Made by a program: the position numbers and the translations under genes. The notes below the pieces were generated by a model. The model was not told where the DNA came from. It ran no database searches and saw nothing but the letters and a program-made list of their open reading frames with translations. 27,429 nucleotides of DNA, taken from positions 1 through 27,429 of IMG/VR virus record IMGVR_UViG_3300037137_000781; one strand, written 5' to 3'. Of this stretch, positions 13,278-26,581 are shown in pieces. Within the stretch, counting starts at the first letter, position 1. Every line of letters begins with the position of its first letter. The stretch is from a virus.

Positions 13278-13925
13278 ATGGGTTTCTGGACGCCATCAAA
13301 TCCAGCATTGAACGAATCCCTCGCTACTTCACAAGGACTTCTTCAGAGCAATTTTTTTATGATACAAGGAGTCTTGGGAAGTTCAACCTTATCGGCTGGT
13401 ATTACATGGGCACAGGGTGATGTTCCTTATGCTTCTGGTGTCCAATTTGTAAAAAATTTAGCCAAGGTATCTGCTTCGTCGATGCTTACCAATTATGGGA
13501 CTACTAATAATCCTTCATGGGTTCCTATAGCAAATGCCTTCACGAATACAACCCTTACGGCAACTGTCAGTGGGACTTTAATCTTGGCGAACAACATCTC
13601 TGGGGCATTTACAGGGATAATCTCATCAAGTGCAAAAATACTTGGTTCCTGGGTAGACAAATCTGCTAGTTATGGAGCACAACAGGCGGTAAGTGATGGA
13701 TTTGTTTTAGTAATTAGCGGTGGGGGGACCAACCAGGACATTTCTGCCTATAGTGATTCTGCTGCTGACCCTACTACAAAGCGTGGTTGGATAAGATATT
13801 TTAATGCAGGTGAAAGTAATAATGCCAGCACTATCACAATGCCCGTTAAAAAGAATGACTATTGGAAGGTTGTCCTTGATGCTGGTAGTGCAATCACGGT
13901 ATATTGGATACCACTTGGGAACTAG
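13278..13925 (+). CDS. Tail or fibre protein (215 aa)
   Basis: A 215-residue Ser/Thr/Ala-rich, predicted beta protein beginning MGFWTPSNPALNESLATSQG. The ATG has AAAGGAGG ten bases upstream (13266-13273). It has no membrane segment and lies directly before the glycosyltransferase-like gene. A tail-fibre or decoration function is likely from composition and context. The Ser/Thr abundance makes it a conceivable O-glycosylation substrate for its neighbour, which is speculation. Confidence 0.5.
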   Translation: MGFWTPSNPALNESLATSQGLLQSNFFMIQGVLGSSTLSAGITWAQGDVPYASGVQFVKNLAKVSASSMLTNYGTTNNPSWVPIANAFTNTTLTATVSGTLILANNISGAFTGIISSSAKILGSWVDKSASYGAQQAVSDGFVLVISGGGTNQDISAYSDSAADPTTKRGWIRYFNAGESNNASTITMPVKKNDYWKVVLDAGSAITVYWIPLGN

Positions 13926-15263
13926 ATGCTCTGGATAACATTGCTCGTTCTCATAACTTACTTACAATCGCTTTTCAACGGGTTCATCAGCGACGACATC
14001 ACCATCAACAACCAACTAAAGACGATAAATTACCCGTTGCTGACGCCTAAGACTTTGGAGGTCTTCACTCACTTTTTTGATTGCCTTGAGTGGAGATACC
14101 TGAAGGAGAACAAGTTCGGGCATCACCTGATAAGCACCATAATTTTCGCTGTTCTATCCTGTTCTTTCTATTTTGTGGCAAAGAAATACATCCCCGAACC
14201 TGTGGCATTTTTGGCTGCACTGATATTCGTGGTGCATCCATGTAACAACCAAGTAGGGGCATGGGCAAGCTCAAAATGGTGGGCAGTTTCTTGCACCGTA
14301 GCTTTGTGGGGGTTGTATTTTAACAACCCGATACTTTACTTGTTCTCGGTATTCTTCAGCCCAGTGACGGTTCCTTTCATATTGTTTTATAAGATAAACT
14401 GGGCGTTCAAGATTATAGCGGTAATCATAGCGTTGTTCATATTGAAGAAGGAACTGAAGGACAAGGTTACAATGAACAATTTTGAGGGGGAATTCAAGGG
14501 GGAAAACCTAAAAATTTACCCAAGGAAGTTAGTAGTTATGGTCAAAAGCTTTGCTTATTACTTCGGTCTTGCCCTTTTTCCTGTTAAAATGGGGTGGTTC
14601 CACGAGATTGGCGAGCCGATTGATGATAAACTGAAGAAAATGAACCTCCATTTCTGGTTAAGCGTAGGTTTAATCGCTACAATTCTGTTTTTTGTCAAGG
14701 CAAAGGCGTTTTTAGGGATGTTTATGTTCATTCTTTTCATCGCCCCCTTCTCAAACTTTCTGACCTTTGCCCTTTTCACCTCTGAAAGATATATGACCCC
14801 TGCTATAATGGGTTGGGCAATATTCTGTGCCTATGTGCTTGTAAGTTACCCAGTTGCGGGTGCAGCTCTAATAACTCTTTACTTCGCAAGAACCCAGTTG
14901 CAGTTATGGTCTTTCAAGAGTGATTTCCACTTGGCTATGTCAAGTTTGATTAATTTTGATAATAGCGGGTATGCTTTAACTAACTTCGCCAACATACTCC
15001 TTGCGATTGGCAGACCTTCCGCTGCGTATGACCTGTTAAGGCACACGGAAAGCAAATTGCCTGGATTTCCTACTACTTATTGGGTTCTTTATACTATGTA
15101 TAGGGCAGTTGATGTATTGAACAATGCTGATGAGGCATATATCAACCTTGAGAAGGCTGTAAGATACGGAAAGCACTCCCATTGGAGAAGTGAACTCGAT
15201 AACTTCAAGAAGATGATATTAATCGATAGAATCGCTAAATTTAAGGCAAAATATGTTAAATAA
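13926..15263 (+). CDS. TMTC-like GT-C membrane glycosyltransferase with TPR-like tail
   Basis: A 445-residue integral membrane protein with about 8-9 hydrophobic segments (from residue 2 to about 320), then a soluble helical tail. It matches the TMTC-like GT-C pattern (polyprenyl-phosphate-sugar-dependent transferases): an acidic DD pair in the first outer loop (FISDD, 20-24), HPCNNQVGAWASSKWWA (104-120, like the family HP...V.W.S.R stretch), ALFPVKMGWFHE (216-227) and SERYMTPAIMG (286-296, like the family AERYLYLPS). The tail (about 345-425) holds TPR-like helices (ALTNFANILLAIGRPSAAYDL). The ATG follows the previous stop immediately. It presumably acts in the host cytoplasmic membrane; the substrate is unknown. 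No catalytic activity can be proved from sequence. Confidence 0.72.
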   Translation: MLWITLLVLITYLQSLFNGFISDDITINNQLKTINYPLLTPKTLEVFTHFFDCLEWRYLKENKFGHHLISTIIFAVLSCSFYFVAKKYIPEPVAFLAALIFVVHPCNNQVGAWASSKWWAVSCTVALWGLYFNNPILYLFSVFFSPVTVPFILFYKINWAFKIIAVIIALFILKKELKDKVTMNNFEGEFKGENLKIYPRKLVVMVKSFAYYFGLALFPVKMGWFHEIGEPIDDKLKKMNLHFWLSVGLIATILFFVKAKAFLGMFMFILFIAPFSNFLTFALFTSERYMTPAIMGWAIFCAYVLVSYPVAGAALITLYFARTQLQLWSFKSDFHLAMSSLINFDNSGYALTNFANILLAIGRPSAAYDLLRHTESKLPGFPTTYWVLYTMYRAVDVLNNADEAYINLEKAVRYGKHSHWRSELDNFKKMILIDRIAKFKAKYVK

Positions 15264-15795
15264 TATACGTGTCTTGCCAAGTCTTAACGCCCAGGAAAAT
15301 TCAGCTTTACAACTTATTGGAAAGCTTGCATTGGGGATGGTTCCTGAAGTGGCTACTAATTCAGCCACCATTACAAGGGACACCCTCCCTCCCCTTTATT
15401 GCCAATTATATAAAAATGACGCCGACACTGCGTTATATTTTAATATCAACAATTCAATATGTTATTTGGGATTTAATGGGACTATGGGATTAAACGCTTC
15501 ATCTGGGGACACGATTTATTATATCAATGGAAGTTGGGTATGCCATCCACCCTCAAGAATATATGATGCCGACCAGGATACGAAAGTAGACACCGAGGAA
15601 TCTCCTGATGAGGATGTTATACGTATGGATTGTGCGGGGACTGAAATCGTAACAGCCAATAATGACCAGTTTGCGGTGAACACAGGGATTAAACTCGGTC
15701 TTGAGGGTAAACTAGGGGACACTTACATGAAATTCAATACTCCTACGAGTTACCTTGAGATGTGGGTTGACGGGATAAAAAGGGTGGAAATGTGA
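15253..15795 (+). CDS. Tail/collar-type protein (180 aa)
   Basis: A 180-residue predicted beta protein overlapping the glycosyltransferase gene by 11 bases. The middle has YDADQDTKVDTEESPDEDVI (an acidic motif around residues 104-123) followed by a C-terminal segment with Gly and hydrophobic alternation that ends in MWVDGIKRVEM. The acidic D-x-D-T-K-x-x-x-E-E-S-x-D-E-D pattern recurs, from memory, in phage collar or fibre proteins with intramolecular or chaperone-type tail domains. Start MLNNIRVLPSLNAQEN. Binding role is inferred. Confidence 0.5.
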   Translation: MLNNIRVLPSLNAQENSALQLIGKLALGMVPEVATNSATITRDTLPPLYCQLYKNDADTALYFNINNSICYLGFNGTMGLNASSGDTIYYINGSWVCHPPSRIYDADQDTKVDTEESPDEDVIRMDCAGTEIVTANNDQFAVNTGIKLGLEGKLGDTYMKFNTPTSYLEMWVDGIKRVEM

Positions 15796-16358
15796 TAGTC
15801 AGTCAGACATTATATCCTACTTATTCAATCGGGACTTTTGATGTCCTGACTATGAATAAGAGTATCACTGCAACAGCTTCGAACACTATCCCTTCATTCA
15901 ATTTTACCTCTGTTGACCAAACCGTCAACAACATAAATACCTCGTTCTTTTTCACCGTAATCACCATGAACAAGTCGGGGATGATTACTGTAACTCCTTC
16001 CTGTTCTTGGAATCAAGCAGTATCATTGATACATAACCAGACTCTTGACTGTGATATTGCCAGTGTCGTTATTGCCGAGATAGGCAAGCCATTCATATTC
16101 TCCGAGAAGGACAATGACGAACCAATAGTTACTTATGACAGGGATGCTTCGCTTCCTATAGTTTTCTATAGTAGAAGTTACGGGTTCGACAAGTTTATAC
16201 ACAACAGATTAAAGATTATTTCAAGTATGAACAGATATACTAGGGCAGGAAACGAATCATTGATAAACCCTATAAGGAATATACAGGCGATAAATATGAA
16301 CAAGTCGGCTCCGACAGTTTATTCTATGTCGGCTGCCTTTAACACATCGGTATTCTAA
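15792..16358 (+). CDS. Tail protein, beta-rich (188 aa)
   Basis: A 188-residue Ser/Thr/Asn-rich, predicted beta protein. GTG start overlaps the preceding TGA by 4 bases (15792-15795). It contains two related NKS segments (MNKSITATASNTI near 21 and MNKSGMITVTPS near 59), hinting at an internal repeat, and ends NKSAPTVYSMSAAFNTSVF. It lies immediately before the four paralogues but does not share their motifs. Likely a tail component; function not known. Confidence 0.5.
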   Translation: MIVSQTLYPTYSIGTFDVLTMNKSITATASNTIPSFNFTSVDQTVNNINTSFFFTVITMNKSGMITVTPSCSWNQAVSLIHNQTLDCDIASVVIAEIGKPFIFSEKDNDEPIVTYDRDASLPIVFYSRSYGFDKFIHNRLKIISSMNRYTRAGNESLINPIRNIQAINMNKSAPTVYSMSAAFNTSVF

Positions 16359-16915
16359 TGGAAAATTTAAGTCTTAAATTGCAGTATGATATCGTAAAGG
16401 ACAATAAGTTAATTTATAAATCTGATATAGAAGAATGCCACAGTTTTGTAAAGGCATGGTTAATTTATCTTACTTATGCAATAGGAGGAGCATATAGTTT
16501 TAATCTAAAGGATACTGGAAATGTAACCCGTAGTGGAACAGGTGATGTTGATAATCGAATGAAGGTTGCAATATCTGCTGGAGACGTAAGTCAAGGAATA
16601 GTGGCAGGAATTGGAACAAATGCGGTAACTTTAGATGATTATGCTCTACAGACTATAATAGGTCATGGGGCGGGAGCAGGTCAATTGCAGTATTCTGATT
16701 GCTCTGTAGGTGCACCTGGTTACACGGCAAGCACCATAACTGAAACCATAACAAGAGTATTTACTAATGCTTCTGGAGGAACAATTACCATAAAAGAAAT
16801 TGGTATATATGGATTTTCTAATCGTGCTTATTGCATCGCTAGAGATTTGGTAGATATAGAGCTTTTTAATGGTGCCCAATTAACTCTTAATTATATCTTA
16901 GAGGTTAGCATATGA
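16358..16915 (+). CDS. Tandem tail paralogue 1 (185 aa)
   Basis: First of four adjacent related genes. Shared features: an N-terminal beta-strand segment then SFVKA (residues 30-34), a G-(I/V)-x-x-G-I/V-G-T-x region, a DDYALQTIIGHG-type motif (about 91-102), an FTNASGGTITIKEIGIYG segment (about 134-151) and a RD...L-x-x-x-Y ending. The start overlaps the preceding stop by 1 base (TAATG). The gene is AT-rich compared with neighbours. Similar IGTG...DDY.L...HG...EIGIYG patterns are, from memory, widespread in small phage structural proteins. Tail or fibre role inferred. Confidence 0.55.
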   Translation: MENLSLKLQYDIVKDNKLIYKSDIEECHSFVKAWLIYLTYAIGGAYSFNLKDTGNVTRSGTGDVDNRMKVAISAGDVSQGIVAGIGTNAVTLDDYALQTIIGHGAGAGQLQYSDCSVGAPGYTASTITETITRVFTNASGGTITIKEIGIYGFSNRAYCIARDLVDIELFNGAQLTLNYILEVSI

Positions 16916-17466
16916 GAGATAATTTTCAGGCGTATTATAGCTATCAAATAAGTGAAGGAGATAAGATAATAAAAAAAGGAAGAAAGAAAAGTCATAGCTT
17001 TGTAGAAGGTATGGCTCATGCATTTTCACATTTTCTTGCTCTAACATATAATTTTTCCTCTACTGATACAGGAGGAACTGTAAGGAGTTATAGTGGATAT
17101 GGGGGATATGGTGCTGGTATTACAGATGGAACTTACGGGATTCTGATTGGAACTGGAAGTAATTCGGAATCAATAAGTGACTATAAACTCCAAAGCCAAA
17201 CAGGTCATGGGACTACATCTAACTTTGTATATTATAATGCTTGCACCATAGGAGCTGCTGCTGCAACTCCAAGCGATATAAGCGTAAGGGTGGCAAGGAC
17301 ATTCACTAACCAATCTGGTGTAACTAAAACTATAGAAGAAATAGGGCTAGCTAGTCGGCATAGCACGGGATATAAATTTCTGCATATCCGTGATTTGACT
17401 GGGGGAATTACGGTAAATAACGGGCAGACACTAACCATAAACTATGATTTTATAACTATGCTATGA
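16912..17466 (+). CDS. Tandem tail paralogue 2 (184 aa)
   Basis: Second paralogue, beginning MRDNFQAYYSYQISEGDKII, overlapping the first by 4 bases (ATGA, 16912-16915). It keeps SFVEG, IGTGSNSESISDYKLQSQTG, the HG following it, FTNQSGVTKTIEEIGL and a RDLTGGITVNNGQTLTINY ending. Gly/Tyr-rich segment near residues 62-70 (SYSGYGGYG) is specific to this copy. Divergence from copies 1, 3 and 4 is large, so the duplication is not recent. Confidence 0.55.
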   Translation: MRDNFQAYYSYQISEGDKIIKKGRKKSHSFVEGMAHAFSHFLALTYNFSSTDTGGTVRSYSGYGGYGAGITDGTYGILIGTGSNSESISDYKLQSQTGHGTTSNFVYYNACTIGAAAATPSDISVRVARTFTNQSGVTKTIEEIGLASRHSTGYKFLHIRDLTGGITVNNGQTLTINYDFITML

Positions 17467-18068
17467 ATCTTTTTTATAAGCTTACTTTTTTAGACGATAA
17501 ATACAAGATAATAAGGGAAACTGTCCCAATCCAGTCAAAAAGCTTCCTGAAAGGTTTTGTATGGTGCTTAAATTCGGCATTTACATCTGCTAAGGCTACA
17601 AGTGCAATACAGGATACACAAGGGAATATAGATACGCCAATTTCTGGTTATCAATGGTCATTCCATCCAGGAGGAGACTCTCAATATTTATTCTCGTCTT
17701 CTAGCTATTTAAAAACAGATGAAGTGGGAATAGTGGTAGGAACAGGTAATACCCCGATTACCGTAGACGACTATAAATTAGCATCGCAAATATATCATGG
17801 TTCTACTTCAGGAAAATTTGAATATCTTAGTTGTGCGATAACTAATTTGGTAGTTTCTGGTGCTGCATATTCATTTGATTTACAAAGGATATTCCTTAAT
17901 TCAAGTGGGGGTTCAATAGACATAGCAGAGATAGGAATATATTCAAGAATTTATTTATCTCCAAGTGGAAATTCTAATTTTATGATAATTAGGGATATCG
18001 TTTCTGCAGCGGAAACCGTAACTGATGGAGTTTATATCAAGGCAACTTATACATTCCAGATAACATGA
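17463..18068 (+). CDS. Tandem tail paralogue 3 (201 aa)
   Basis: Third and longest paralogue, beginning MNLFYKLTFLDDKYKIIRET and overlapping copy 2 by 4 bases. It shows KSFLKGF, VVGTGNTPITVDDYKLASQ, HG, LNSSGGSIDIAEIGIYSR and a RDIVSAAETVTDG ending. Extra length lies in an insertion between the SFLKG segment and the GTG motif (near residues 50-85). Function as for the other copies. Confidence 0.55.
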   Translation: MNLFYKLTFLDDKYKIIRETVPIQSKSFLKGFVWCLNSAFTSAKATSAIQDTQGNIDTPISGYQWSFHPGGDSQYLFSSSSYLKTDEVGIVVGTGNTPITVDDYKLASQIYHGSTSGKFEYLSCAITNLVVSGAAYSFDLQRIFLNSSGGSIDIAEIGIYSRIYLSPSGNSNFMIIRDIVSAAETVTDGVYIKATYTFQIT

Positions 18069-18625
18069 AAGTATATTATAACCTTAAAGTTTTCGGTGAT
18101 GGGAAGTTAAAGAGGAAAACAAGGAAATACAGGAGTAGGAGTTTTTTAAAGCCGTTCCTTTATATTTTTGGCAATTCTGTAGGAGGAATATCTAATGTCT
18201 GTTCAGATATTGGTGGAAGTTCAAGGAATACGAATGGGATTATAAAAGTCAGTTATCCTGGGCTTCTTAGTTATGTTAACCCAGATAATGTGGGCATACA
18301 AATAGGGACAGGGAATACTGCCGTGACTCTTACCGATTATAAATTGCAGACCGCAGTTCTTCATGGGGCATCTGCTAATAAAATGCTGAAACACGGGACT
18401 TATACAAGGAATTTTATCACGGGAGCGACTACTTCCTCTTTTGATATTGAGTGCATGTTCTTAAACTCAAGTGGTGGAAGTATCACAGTTAAAGAAACTG
18501 GGATATATGGATATGACAATAATTTGTATTATTTTTGTGTATTAAGGGATGTTTTGGCTTCAACAGTCCAGGTAGATGATAATGAATATTTACTAGTAAC
18601 TTACACAATACAGGTTGCAGTATGA
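18065..18625 (+). CDS. Tandem tail paralogue 4 (186 aa)
   Basis: Fourth paralogue, beginning MKVYYNLKVFGDGKLKRKTR, overlapping copy 3 by 4 bases (ATGA). It carries RSFLKPF, QIGTGNTAVTLTDYKLQTAV, HG, LNSSGGSITVKETGIYG and a RDVLASTVQVDDN ending. The basic run KLKRKTRKYRSRS near residues 14-26 is a feature of this copy. Its stop overlaps the next gene start by 4 bases. Confidence 0.55.
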   Translation: MKVYYNLKVFGDGKLKRKTRKYRSRSFLKPFLYIFGNSVGGISNVCSDIGGSSRNTNGIIKVSYPGLLSYVNPDNVGIQIGTGNTAVTLTDYKLQTAVLHGASANKMLKHGTYTRNFITGATTSSFDIECMFLNSSGGSITVKETGIYGYDNNLYYFCVLRDVLASTVQVDDNEYLLVTYTIQVAV

Positions 18626-21670: not shown

Positions 21671-22871
21671 AGTGATAACTTTTAAAAATAAGAAGACAGG
21701 AGAAACTATTACTTTAGACAAAAAAGTAGTTTCTCCCGCACCTGTGAAAAATAAATCTGCTACTATCGCAGAGGATATAAAAAGTAGGGGGACTATACAA
21801 GGTCAGATAGGTTCTAATCTATTTGCTCAAAGTCCTCTAAGGAAAGGTGTAGGGGCTTTACAGACTATAGGTGCACCATTACCAATGATAGAAGCTGGAA
21901 TTGCTAATCCTGCTTTGGCTATGCAATCTGGTAATTTCAATCCAATAGATTTAGGGAAAGAGGCTATTGCAGGTTTCACAGGTCAAAAGCTAGGTCAATA
22001 TGGTGATGTGTTCAGAGGAGCTAATTTTCCTGAGCCAGTTGCTGCTTCATTAGGGCTTGTATTGGCGTCATCACCATTAAAAGCACTGAATATGGCAAAT
22101 AAAGCATTTGGGAAAATATCAAAGATGTCTGATAAGGGTATTCTGCGTGCAGGAGATTCTTTACTTAGTGCAGTCAAGAATGCTACAACCGAAACAGGCA
22201 CTAAGCTAGAAGAAGCATATAAAGTTGTCAATGATGTAACTGTGAATCCTGTTGTTTTCAATAGTCTTTTGAAAAGAATGCCTAAACCTTTACTTGAGGA
22301 ATTTGAAAATACCATAGGAAAAAGTATTTTTGCAAACCCTACAGTTGGCAACTTAAGAAAAGTAAAGCAGATAGTAGGCAAATATAAACCTTCAATTTTT
22401 GGTAGGGAAGAAAGAGGTATGAGCGAGAATATAGAAGGAGAGAAATTAAATCAGCTCTATGGTAATATAAAGATGTTTATTGATACTGTAGTAACAAGCA
22501 AGAAGGGTGGTTCCGTAGCACAAAGGTTGTCAAAAGCTGATGATGCTTTTACGGAAGTTGCTAATGCCTCTGATTATATACAGAAGACTATTACTGACCC
22601 TACTTTGCATTTAGCTACCAAAGGCGGGGCTATGGCTAAGAAGTTAGCTTTAGAAGGTGATGTTTCAGGCAGAAAAGCTCTTAATATATTGAAAAGCTCA
22701 GGGGCGAGGAAGGCAATAAATAAGGCGTTGAGTGACTTAGAGTCCTTCAATAAATGGCAGTTTGTAGGTAAACTCGCAGAGCATGCAGCAGGTGCAGCAA
22801 CATTTGGTGGAGCTATTGGTGGGGCAGGTGGTTATATTGGAAGTAAGATGTATAATAGGAATTTAGAATAA
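21663..22871 (+). CDS. Candidate internal/ejection protein 3 (402 aa)
   Basis: A 402-residue, mostly helical protein starting MSEVITFKNKKTGETITLDK. It ends with AAGAATFGGAIGGAGGYIGS (about residues 373-392), a second glycine-zipper-like segment. The ATG overlaps the preceding gene by 8 bases and the stop overlaps the transglycosylase ATG by 1 base (TAATG). A role in the ejection channel is inferred from neighbourhood and the zipper; no diagnostic motif was recognised. Confidence 0.55.
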   Translation: MSEVITFKNKKTGETITLDKKVVSPAPVKNKSATIAEDIKSRGTIQGQIGSNLFAQSPLRKGVGALQTIGAPLPMIEAGIANPALAMQSGNFNPIDLGKEAIAGFTGQKLGQYGDVFRGANFPEPVAASLGLVLASSPLKALNMANKAFGKISKMSDKGILRAGDSLLSAVKNATTETGTKLEEAYKVVNDVTVNPVVFNSLLKRMPKPLLEEFENTIGKSIFANPTVGNLRKVKQIVGKYKPSIFGREERGMSENIEGEKLNQLYGNIKMFIDTVVTSKKGGSVAQRLSKADDAFTEVANASDYIQKTITDPTLHLATKGGAMAKKLALEGDVSGRKALNILKSSGARKAINKALSDLESFNKWQFVGKLAEHAAGAATFGGAIGGAGGYIGSKMYNRNLE

Positions 22872-23872: not shown

Positions 23873-26581
23873 ATGTCAGTCTATATATCGTCAGGAACAA
23901 ACACGCCAGTAGCAACCGATTCTACTGCGTTAAGTGCTGCACAATACCAGATAATCAAGATAGCTGACGGCTCCCAGTTTTCCGATGCTATGGTTTCTGC
24001 CTCTTCCCTTTACGGGCTTCAGGTAGATGTGTCTCGGATGCCTTCAGTTGCCTTGGTCGCTGGTACTAATGTCTCTGCCACCTTGACAGGGATATCCTCC
24101 GTTGCCCCCACGACACATAGCGTCACCTCAATGATTTACAACACGCCTTCGGTAGCCCCTACCACGCATAGCGTGACCTCGATGATTTATAATACCCCCT
24201 CTGTAGCTATAGCAGGAGGGGCTAACATATCAGCCACCTTAATAGGAAGCCCTTCGGTTACCATATACGGAATTCCTTCCGTAGCGACTTTCGGTGGCGG
24301 GACTTCGGGGATTATGTCCTTGTCAGGATTACCTTCAGTCACTTTGTTCGGAATCCCTTCCGTAGCTACTATGGGTGGAGGAAATGTATCCTTAACTGGT
24401 TCTCCTTCCGTAACTTTGGTCGGAATATCTTCAGTAGCTTTAATGGCTGCTGCCGAAGTCCACGCTGAACAACTTGGTGCTTGGAATGTATCATTATCAG
24501 GTTTGCCTTCGGTAACTATCTTTGGGACTCCAAGCGTTGCCATACTTGGAAACATCACCACAAGTCCCAATGTCTCACTTACTGGTTCACCAAGCGTAAC
24601 TCTCTTTGGGATACCTTCTGTCGCTATCTTAGGGACTATAAATACTTCCCCTAATGTTTCCTTGACTGGTAGCCCATCGGTTACGCTTTTTGGAACTCCC
24701 TCAGTAGCAATCTTAGGGACTATAAACACAGGAAACTCTTCAGTAAGCCAGTTAGGCAACTGGAATGTCACCGCAACCCAACTTGGTATCTGGAATGTAT
24801 CTGCCACCTTTATCGGGATTCCCTCGGTTGCCACTATGGGTGGAGGAACGGGAATTACTTCGCTCTCTGGGCTTCCTTCGGTTACTCTTTACGGCACTCC
24901 GAGTGTGGCAGTTCTTGGTGGAGGGGGAAATACTTCAGCTTCCCAGATAGGAATATGGAATGTCTCGTCTTCCCAGATAGGAAATTATAATGTTTCCGCT
25001 TCCCAGATAGGCACTTTCAATGTAACTTCTACAATCTTAGGAACTCCTTCAGTTGCGGTTACTGGCGGTGTGGGAGTATCGGCTGCCATAACAGGAATGG
25101 GTCTTTCTTCTGTCGCCCTTTGGGGATTGACTTCAGTTTCACTGGTTAATCCTGTCAATGCTACTATATCGCAACTTCCTGCTGGAGCTTGGAATACCTC
25201 ATTAAGTGGAAGTCCTTCCGTTACTCTCGTAGGGACATCAAGCGTAGCTGCTGTTGCAGGATTACAGGTAAACTCCTCAGCAAGGCAGACTGGTGCCTGG
25301 TCTATGACTTTAATGGGCAGTTCTGCAAATATAGGTTCGGTAGCAACTACCTATATGGGGACACAAAGTGTATCTTTGTTAGGTAGCTCCGCTTACATAG
25401 GTTCTGTTACCGCTATGGCAATGGGGACTTACTCCGTAGGGGCTACAGGAATAGTCTCAATATCTGGCTCGCCTTCAGTAACACTTGTCGGAATTTCTTC
25501 AGTCGCTCCCACAACTCATAGTGTAACTGCTATGCTTTACAGTTCCCCATCAGTAGCTATTACTGGTGGAGGTAGCCATAATGTTACTGCTACCCAGTTG
25601 GGAATTTGGAATGTCTCAGCGACTTTTATAGGTATCCCCTCTGTCGCTACAATGGGGGGTGGTACAGGGATAACTTCCCTTTCTGGTTCTCCGAGTGTTA
25701 CCTTGTTCGGAATTCCTTCTGTAGCTATCATGGGAGAGGTAGCAGCAAGTCCTAATGTTTCCCTCACAGGTTTGCCTTCAGTTACACTATTCGGTATACC
25801 GTCAGTAGCTATCTTAGGTTCAATCACCACTATGTTGGGGAATATTAATGCCTCAGCTTACCAGGTAGGAGCGTGGAATACTTCATTGAGCGGTTCTCCT
25901 AGTGTAACACTATTCGGTATTCCCTCAGTAGCCATTGTAACCCCTATCAATGCTTCAGTAGGGCAGATAGGTGCTTGGAATATCTCTCTATCTGGAAGTC
26001 CTTCAGTTACTTTAGTGGGCACTTCAAGCGTTGCTATGATGGGAGGAGTGAATGTTTCGGGGTCAGTCTCCGCTTCTCAAATCGGAGGTTGGAATGTTTC
26101 ATTAAGCGGTTCACCGTCAGTTACTTTGGTAGGGATTTCATCTGTTGCTATGGTGGCTAATCCTTCAGTTACGGTAGGGGCGTTATACGGAACTCCGAGT
26201 GTAGCCCCGACTACCCACTCCGTTACAGCGATGATTTACAATACTCCTTCTATTGCTATTACCGCTACTGCTTCAGTCGCTTCCTTGAGAAAATCACTTT
26301 TGACCACTAATACGGTGACTGCTCCTGTAGTTCTCTGGTCTAATGCTGCCACCACAAAATGGTGTCTAACAGCCCTGGCTATTTCAGTAAATAATACCTG
26401 CACGGTGAGTCTATATGACGGGATAGCTTCAATGGCTACATTCTGGTTTATGCCATACGGAGGAATGACCCAGGAATTTGACATACCCTTGAAATCGGGA
26501 GGGATAGGCTCAAATATAATGATAACGGCGATAGGGACGGCTTCAACAGGATTTCTTGCCGTCGGTTATGAAACTACATAA
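23873..26581 (+). CDS. Long Ser/Thr-rich repeat protein, tail fibre-like (902 aa)
   Basis: A 902-residue protein in which residues about 50-800 are built from short beta-type repeats. The core unit G(S/L)PSVT(L/I)xG(I/T)(P/S)SVA occurs 14 times. QIG or QLG plus xWNVS and PTTHSVTxMxYxT (4 copies) are further modules. The N-terminal segment (YQIIKIADGSQFSD, 26-39) resembles the start of known phage virion proteins with 'YQ+VK' entry motifs, and the last 100 residues look like a beta-sandwich cap (CLTALAIS..., TQEFDIPLKSGG). Ribosome site AAGGAG at 23863-23868. Repeats imply an elongated fibre; the synonymous codons differ widely between copies. Confidence 0.65.
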   Translation: MSVYISSGTNTPVATDSTALSAAQYQIIKIADGSQFSDAMVSASSLYGLQVDVSRMPSVALVAGTNVSATLTGISSVAPTTHSVTSMIYNTPSVAPTTHSVTSMIYNTPSVAIAGGANISATLIGSPSVTIYGIPSVATFGGGTSGIMSLSGLPSVTLFGIPSVATMGGGNVSLTGSPSVTLVGISSVALMAAAEVHAEQLGAWNVSLSGLPSVTIFGTPSVAILGNITTSPNVSLTGSPSVTLFGIPSVAILGTINTSPNVSLTGSPSVTLFGTPSVAILGTINTGNSSVSQLGNWNVTATQLGIWNVSATFIGIPSVATMGGGTGITSLSGLPSVTLYGTPSVAVLGGGGNTSASQIGIWNVSSSQIGNYNVSASQIGTFNVTSTILGTPSVAVTGGVGVSAAITGMGLSSVALWGLTSVSLVNPVNATISQLPAGAWNTSLSGSPSVTLVGTSSVAAVAGLQVNSSARQTGAWSMTLMGSSANIGSVATTYMGTQSVSLLGSSAYIGSVTAMAMGTYSVGATGIVSISGSPSVTLVGISSVAPTTHSVTAMLYSSPSVAITGGGSHNVTATQLGIWNVSATFIGIPSVATMGGGTGITSLSGSPSVTLFGIPSVAIMGEVAASPNVSLTGLPSVTLFGIPSVAILGSITTMLGNINASAYQVGAWNTSLSGSPSVTLFGIPSVAIVTPINASVGQIGAWNISLSGSPSVTLVGTSSVAMMGGVNVSGSVSASQIGGWNVSLSGSPSVTLVGISSVAMVANPSVTVGALYGTPSVAPTTHSVTAMIYNTPSIAITATASVASLRKSLLTTNTVTAPVVLWSNAATTKWCLTALAISVNNTCTVSLYDGIASMATFWFMPYGGMTQEFDIPLKSGGIGSNIMITAIGTASTGFLAVGYETT
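24096..26250 (+). repeat. Protein-level repeat array with diversified codons
   Basis: The repeat-coding DNA is not a clean nucleotide repeat. PSVT, for example, is written ccttcggttacc, ccttcagtcact, ccaagcgtaact, ccgagtgttacc and other ways, using most Ser and Pro codons. One 17-residue unit, PSVAPTTHSVTSMIYNT, is tandem (about 24098-24200) yet also differs in many third positions. A block ATQLGIWNVSATFIGIPSVA recurs around 24775 and 25590. Confidence 0.75.

Follow-up and report, generated by a model that had tools for sequence, protein, structure and literature searches.

A predicted TMTC-like GT-C glycosyltransferase encoded in the late operon of a tailed phage with a probable Omnitrophota host

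What might a membrane-embedded sugar transferase do when its gene lies among the virion genes of a phage? The question is raised by the virus record IMGVR_UViG_3300037137_000781, whose whole stretch of 27,429 bases is here called the window and whose glycosyltransferase is designated P0001. The gene and its immediate neighbours are as follows.

13278..13925, + strand: upstream co-directional gene, 215 aa, no family match
13926..15263, + strand: TMTC-like GT-C glycosyltransferase gene, 445 aa (open reading frame; structure and profile evidence)
15253..15795, + strand: downstream overlapping gene, 180 aa, no family match

The gene is genuine. The TAG stop codon of the 215-aa gene ends at 13925 and the ATG of P0001 follows at 13926, while the end of the P0001 gene and the next reading frame (from 15253) overlap by 11 nt. 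The open reading frame and the direct start behind the preceding stop, both named in the original prediction, agree with the list of reading frames and the coordinates, as do the residues that it had singled out (DD at 23-24, H104 and P105, W113, LFP at 217-219, SERYMTP at 286-292). An assembly error was rejected, because the gene is coupled to both neighbours and homologues occur in other late operons. Besides P0001, the late operon of the window includes terminase, portal, capsid and tail-type genes. A position inside a tail operon, as predicted, is broadly correct: the terminase (1509), portal (3518), major head protein (7616) and a tail protein (16358) match PHROGs families, and a transglycosylase-type protein is encoded at 22871. 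The 215-aa and 180-aa neighbours matched nothing in PHROGs and family searches. The neighbours had also been described as Ser/Thr-rich, which is true of a 902-aa repeat protein (28.9% Ser+Thr) and weakly so of the 215-aa protein, which at 22.3% ranks about seventh of the 32 window proteins (mean 16.5%). As only the 902-aa protein stands out among the 32, Ser/Thr-rich neighbours were rejected as evidence for an acceptor.

Two further observations concern the window. The 902-aa protein (23873-26581) contains many PSV/GIPSVA repeats and has no family match. The region 16358-18625 encodes four consecutive proteins of 184-201 aa that by eye look like tandem paralogues, with common GT..HG..G and SGG.I..EIG.Y stretches, the first of which matches a tail protein family.

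By its predicted structure, P0001 combines a GT-C transferase domain with TPRs at the C-terminus. A first model built with 9 sequences reached a pLDDT of 75.6 and a pTM of 0.75; with 32 sequences these values rose to 87.5 and 0.88. The top VIA-align match was Pmt4 (Z 16.0, 292 residues, 4.7 Å), along with ALG12 (Z 15.9), human STT3 (15.2), yeast STT3 (14.8), ArnT (14.4), AglB (14.4) and PglB (13.8). The best 23 VIA-align matches were all GT-C proteins, aligned over model residues 1 to about 340, and the first match outside this group was a TPR protein aligned to the tail of P0001 only. Foldseek E-values were weak (best 0.024, PglB), with most of the leading matches again GT-C. The helices of the model fit a reading with 11 transmembrane segments in which TM5 and TM6 are short, and positive-inside charge counts give no clear side. 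The tail is placed as follows.

14922..15260, + strand: residues 333-445, TPR-type helical domain at the C-terminus (helices of the model; structure matches to TPR proteins; Pfam TPR matches in six of nine relatives)

Both the GT-C fold and the TPR-like tail had been predicted from the sequence. The fold is borne out by the structure matches together with the profile searches described below, and the tail by the model, by TPR structure matches and by Pfam TPR matches in six of the nine relatives, P0001 itself reaching no Pfam model. A search with the A5 profile against PDB sequences is silent on the membrane domain, since its best 60 matches covered the TPR part only. The best viral Foldseek match of the first model was BFVD entry A0A514K300 from Nitrosopumilus spindle-shaped virus 1 (Foldseek probability 1.0, E 6e-3), which may be a further GT-C protein of viral origin.

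Searched alone, P0001 had no match in Pfam, PHROGs, PDB sequences or deposited phages (tblastn) and returned noise only from NCBIfam; exact peptide patterns taken from it found nothing. One degenerate pattern gave three chance matches. Another degenerate DNA pattern, F..HP...(E/Q)..AW..G(R/S), gave seven loci in viral contigs, among which L006, L010 and L011 are true relatives. By type, L006 and L011 (25% and 28% identity to P0001) belong with the phage proteins and L010 with the bacterial ones. Profile scans added L012-L016, L020-L022 and L075, and a second pattern added L070 and L072. Homologues of the phage type or on clear phage contigs occur on ten contigs, or nine if the near-copies L070 and L072 are merged; in all, homologues were found in at least 9 other viral contigs (11 gene copies), a lower bound because the viral pattern scans require one conserved stretch. 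Two contigs carry two copies each: 3300035698_007301 (L017) and, in tandem, 3300031707_002348 (L015). In L070 (1281-3761) and L072 (3-2354), an insert of roughly 1 kb with a 164-aa reading frame, possibly an intron or homing element, separates the membrane part of the TMTC-like gene from its TPR part. An HMM of the membrane domain built from cellular TMTC-like proteins only detected P0001 at E 2.4e-21 (best of 500 shuffles 0.15), and one built from the eight other phage proteins did so at E 9.6e-46 (best shuffle 0.44). As shuffled sequences fail where P0001 matches both HMMs, a chance membrane protein was rejected. In hhalign, the phage and cellular membrane-domain profiles aligned over 304 columns with a probability of 99.9% and an E-value of 3.5e-35. 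Among the loci compared, the best BLASTP match of P0001 was L091 (26% over 427 aa, E 1.8e-30).

The conserved residues of P0001 map to the following codons.

13992..13997, + strand: D23-D24, motif M1, acidic pair in the first extracytoplasmic loop; DD in 9/9 phage and 48/48 cellular sequences
14235..14240, + strand: H104-P105, where the second outer loop starts; HP in all nine phage sequences, H in 46/48 and P in 48/48 cellular sequences
14262..14264, + strand: W113; 9/9 phage, 28/48 cellular
14580..14603, + strand: P219-H226 (PVKMGWFH), with P219 and an F-H that replaces the DW motif of TMTCs; P219 in 8/9 phage, 46/48 cellular
14784..14792, + strand: E287-R288-Y289, motif M7; R in 9/9 phage, 39/48 cellular

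The positions proposed as hallmarks (acidic pair, HP, W and ER) are thus conserved in the nine phage and most of the 48 cellular sequences. D23 and D24, the acidic residues expected of a GT-C enzyme, are invariant across all 57, and the nine-phage alignment keeps D23, D24, F101, H104, P105, W113, R288, Y289, G296 and R322. R288, in the ER of M7, is presumably the arginine that contacts the lipid phosphate in GT-C structures.

Whether P0001, which the original prediction called TMTC-like, is a TMTC proper was examined in the 32-sequence alignment against motifs M1-M7, which were defined for the human TMTCs (PMC7801869). The general build stands, with a GT-C membrane domain followed by TPRs and with the named residues in place, as do the DD of M1 and the ER of M7, which the phage proteins keep; motifs M3, M4 and M5 do not. 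M3 (RxD, second outer loop) is absent, its place being taken by SSKWW in P0001 and by S/T-G-x-x-Y in the other phage relatives; M4, KE(T/Q)xxT, is absent from 9/9 phage proteins and from five Omnitrophota pilus-operon proteins; and M5 (DW) is lost, with F/Y-H instead in most phage members. M7 (ERxxY) reads ERYMT in P0001, so that its tyrosine is replaced by T291; the other eight phage proteins have an aromatic Y or F there. PF08409 (TMTC_DUF1736) did not match P0001 up to an E-value of 10 and did not figure in the 25 most frequent families among 28 cellular relatives. TMTC proper was therefore rejected; with M3, M4 and M5 lost, M7 altered and PF08409 unmatched, P0001 is TMTC-like in build and belongs to a separate subfamily. 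The five aligned Omnitrophota pilus-operon proteins share the changes of the phage proteins: S(G/A)xxY, no KE, and F/Y-H at the DW position.

The placement of the gene had been thought unusual, and it proved not to be unique: several unrelated viral contigs carry such genes amid their virion genes, for the most part directly adjoining them. In L017, one copy is located 3' of capsid-region genes and the other overlaps a 444-aa gene with virion/fibre matches; in L015, L021 and L022, a copy directly follows a capsid gene and a 130-151-aa protein. Glycan cassettes adjoin three homologues: in L020 and L013 the copy stands behind late virion-type genes and heads the cassette, and in L014 it ends a cassette that faces the virion operon. 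According to Pfam, the cassette genes encode a GDP-mannose 4,6-dehydratase, GT2, cupin, DegT aminotransferase, epimerase and polysaccharide deacetylase. No other window protein had a BLASTP match (1e-4) in the homologue-bearing contigs; the phages are thus distant, and the gene recurs across them. Fibre-like phage genes with clear Sec signal peptides lie near the TMTC-like gene in L022 (15188-17192) and L075 (3718-6909). Exported virion-type proteins of this kind were unexpected. The fibre-like protein at L022 15188 carries an NLGLTKP...WG..LNTNFD stretch, and L016 has several similar genes.

In a 57-row tree, a branch (100/99) set the nine phage proteins apart, with the Omnitrophota pair L023/L024 next to them. 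A larger tree grouped ten phage proteins with L091, an Omnitrophota chromosomal gene (99/95), and this group adjoined a six-member Omnitrophota clade (100/100). L075, also a phage protein, fell inside a different Omnitrophota clade (100/100). Because L075 and the main phage clade fall apart in the tree, phages took up such genes from Omnitrophota at least twice. The sister of P0001 was L012b in one tree; in the next, P0001 stood inside the phage clade with no resolved sister, and its surroundings have long branches. All six members of the Omnitrophota clade belong to type IV pilus operons: five of the genes come straight after a pilin gene, and the sixth neighbours a PilM-type gene; L091 lies among housekeeping genes, outside any pilus operon. 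In the sister clade of L075, L093 overlaps a pilin gene. In total, Omnitrophota TMTC-like genes were seen in type IV pilus operons at L023, L024, L061, L062, L065-L068 and L093, and those behind or overlapping pilin genes are candidate pilin glycosyltransferases.

As judged from its genes, the window belongs to a tailed phage that probably infects Omnitrophota, an uncultivated bacterial phylum. This host phylum is likely because relatives of its terminase (TerL) and capsid genes occur in Omnitrophota genomes. The TerL relative (38% over 561 aa, E 5e-131) is found on an Omnitrophota chromosomal contig near tRNA-Ser and serS; the best-scoring matches among deposited phages showed 35% identity at 47% query coverage. 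Relatives of the capsid gene and its upstream neighbour adjoin on a 3.2-kb contig of another Omnitrophota MAG, which may be a phage contig that was binned with the MAG. No relative of the window portal turned up in Omnitrophota genomes, and neither CRISPR spacers nor a complete prophage confirmed the host link. The TerL locus (L100, 1936-6634), which holds TerL with a small terminase-like gene and a primase-like gene by tRNA-Ser and serS, reads as either the remnant of a prophage or a satellite, in both cases akin to the window phage.

The sugar donors of GT-C enzymes are of the polyprenyl-phosphate type, and catalysis takes place at the outer face of the membrane (PMC7801869, PMC6801728). In Pseudomonas aeruginosa, the pilin transferases TfpO and TfpW give protection against pilus phages (PMC11841053). 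As an integral-membrane GT-C glycosyltransferase, P0001 would take a sugar from a polyprenyl-phosphate carrier and pass it, outside the cytoplasmic membrane, to a host protein that is secreted or anchored in that membrane and that the TPR domain probably binds. The best candidate acceptor would be a type IV pilin or pilus-like component of the Omnitrophota host, and its modification might change the adsorption surface and so limit re-adsorption or superinfection. The computation supports the GT-C fold, the TPR tail, the conserved acidic pair and ER, the recurrence in phage late operons and the Omnitrophota ancestry. That P0001 glycosylates an extracytoplasmic, likely pilus-type host protein and thereby alters the phage receptor is the reading we favour, at a little under an even chance; a host surface protein, most likely the pilus, is preferred on account of the pilus-operon relatives and the TfpO/TfpW precedent. 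Several points weigh against it: the gene sits among late virion genes and not early host-takeover genes; the KE residues, proposed metal and phosphate binders in TMTCs, are missing; the pilus link comes from cellular relatives, the closest of which, L091, is outside a pilus operon; and neither a sugar-synthesis gene nor a pilin was recognised in the window.

The late position is also what keeps alive the possibility that P0001 glycosylates the phage's own virion proteins (fibres, decoration), exported to or exposed at the outer face of the membrane, which we consider unlikely but worth serious weight. The gene is repeatedly found right behind decoration- or fibre-type genes, L017 and L015 have two copies per contig, and the L022 and L075 phages encode the signal-peptide-bearing fibre-like proteins nearby. 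Tailed-phage virions, however, assemble in the cytoplasm, whereas GT-C active sites face outward. The signal peptides lift this topological objection in the L022 and L075 phages, but not in the window, where no protein has one; virion glycosylation is thus possible and topologically harder than modification of a host protein. Distinctly improbable is transfer of the sugar onto a glycan or lipid of the host, such as LPS or capsule, instead of a protein, in the manner of phage Gtr serotype-conversion enzymes. GT-C enzymes such as ArnT modify lipid A, and three homologues lie beside the polysaccharide-type cassettes; however, both the TPR tail and the nearest cellular relatives speak for a protein as acceptor, and a flippase/bactoprenol glucosyltransferase pair was not recognised in the window. 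That KE, RxD and the M7 tyrosine are missing would suit a GT-C-derived pseudoenzyme acting via its TPRs, for instance an exclusion protein of the membrane that stops pili from assembling or DNA from entering, yet DD, HP and R are invariant in nine diverged phage copies, which is hard to explain without catalysis and makes this reading more improbable still.

Beyond the favoured host-protein reading, recurrence in late operons and the pilus-operon relatives suggest that phages sugar-coat surface proteins with enzymes of the P0001 type. We propose, with somewhat greater reserve than for the acceptor, that Omnitrophota phages captured a pilus-linked GT-C transferase at least twice for late-operon glycosylation of the host pilus or of exported phage fibres, which would amount to a phage-borne O-glycosylation system for pilin or virion proteins, built on a GT-C/TPR subfamily with altered catalytic motifs. 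No earlier report of TMTC-like GT-C transferases in tailed phages was found in the open-licence literature, and Pfam, PHROGs and NCBIfam contain no entry for the P0001 family. Should the pilus link prove true, P0001 would be a phage-carried counterpart of the Pseudomonas pilin-glycosylation defence and an example of how host surfaces are managed by phages of an uncultivated phylum. The analysis also names an Omnitrophota pilus-operon transferase whose acceptor is directly testable and provides a sequence-based way to recognise such genes on other viral contigs.

Among known systems, TMTC1-4, which are GT-C/PMT-clan O-mannosyltransferases with TPRs, share with P0001 the GT-C domain with C-terminal TPRs, the first-loop DD and the ER of M7; P0001 differs in its lack of TMTC_DUF1736, RxD, KE and DW, in its short TPR tail and in being phage-encoded. 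The Omnitrophota pilus-operon proteins (L023, L024, L065-L068) and L091 have a homologous membrane domain and TPR tail and the same SGxxY, (F/Y)H and SERY motif variants; the pilus-operon proteins differ in being chromosomal and are 49-54% identical to L024, compared with 18-23% to P0001. Phage Gtr O-antigen glucosyltransferases are likewise phage-encoded membrane transferases that alter the host surface, the kind of change proposed for P0001, but they belong to a lysogeny module with a flippase and a bactoprenol transferase, whereas P0001 is in a virion operon. By role, P0001 is likened to TfpW, the GT-C pilin arabinosyltransferase of Pseudomonas aeruginosa: TfpW is a bacterial gene with a defence role, but it too is a membrane transferase encoded beside the pilin, a feature of the pilus-operon relatives, and its pilin modification alters phage adsorption, as is proposed here for P0001 (PMC11841053).
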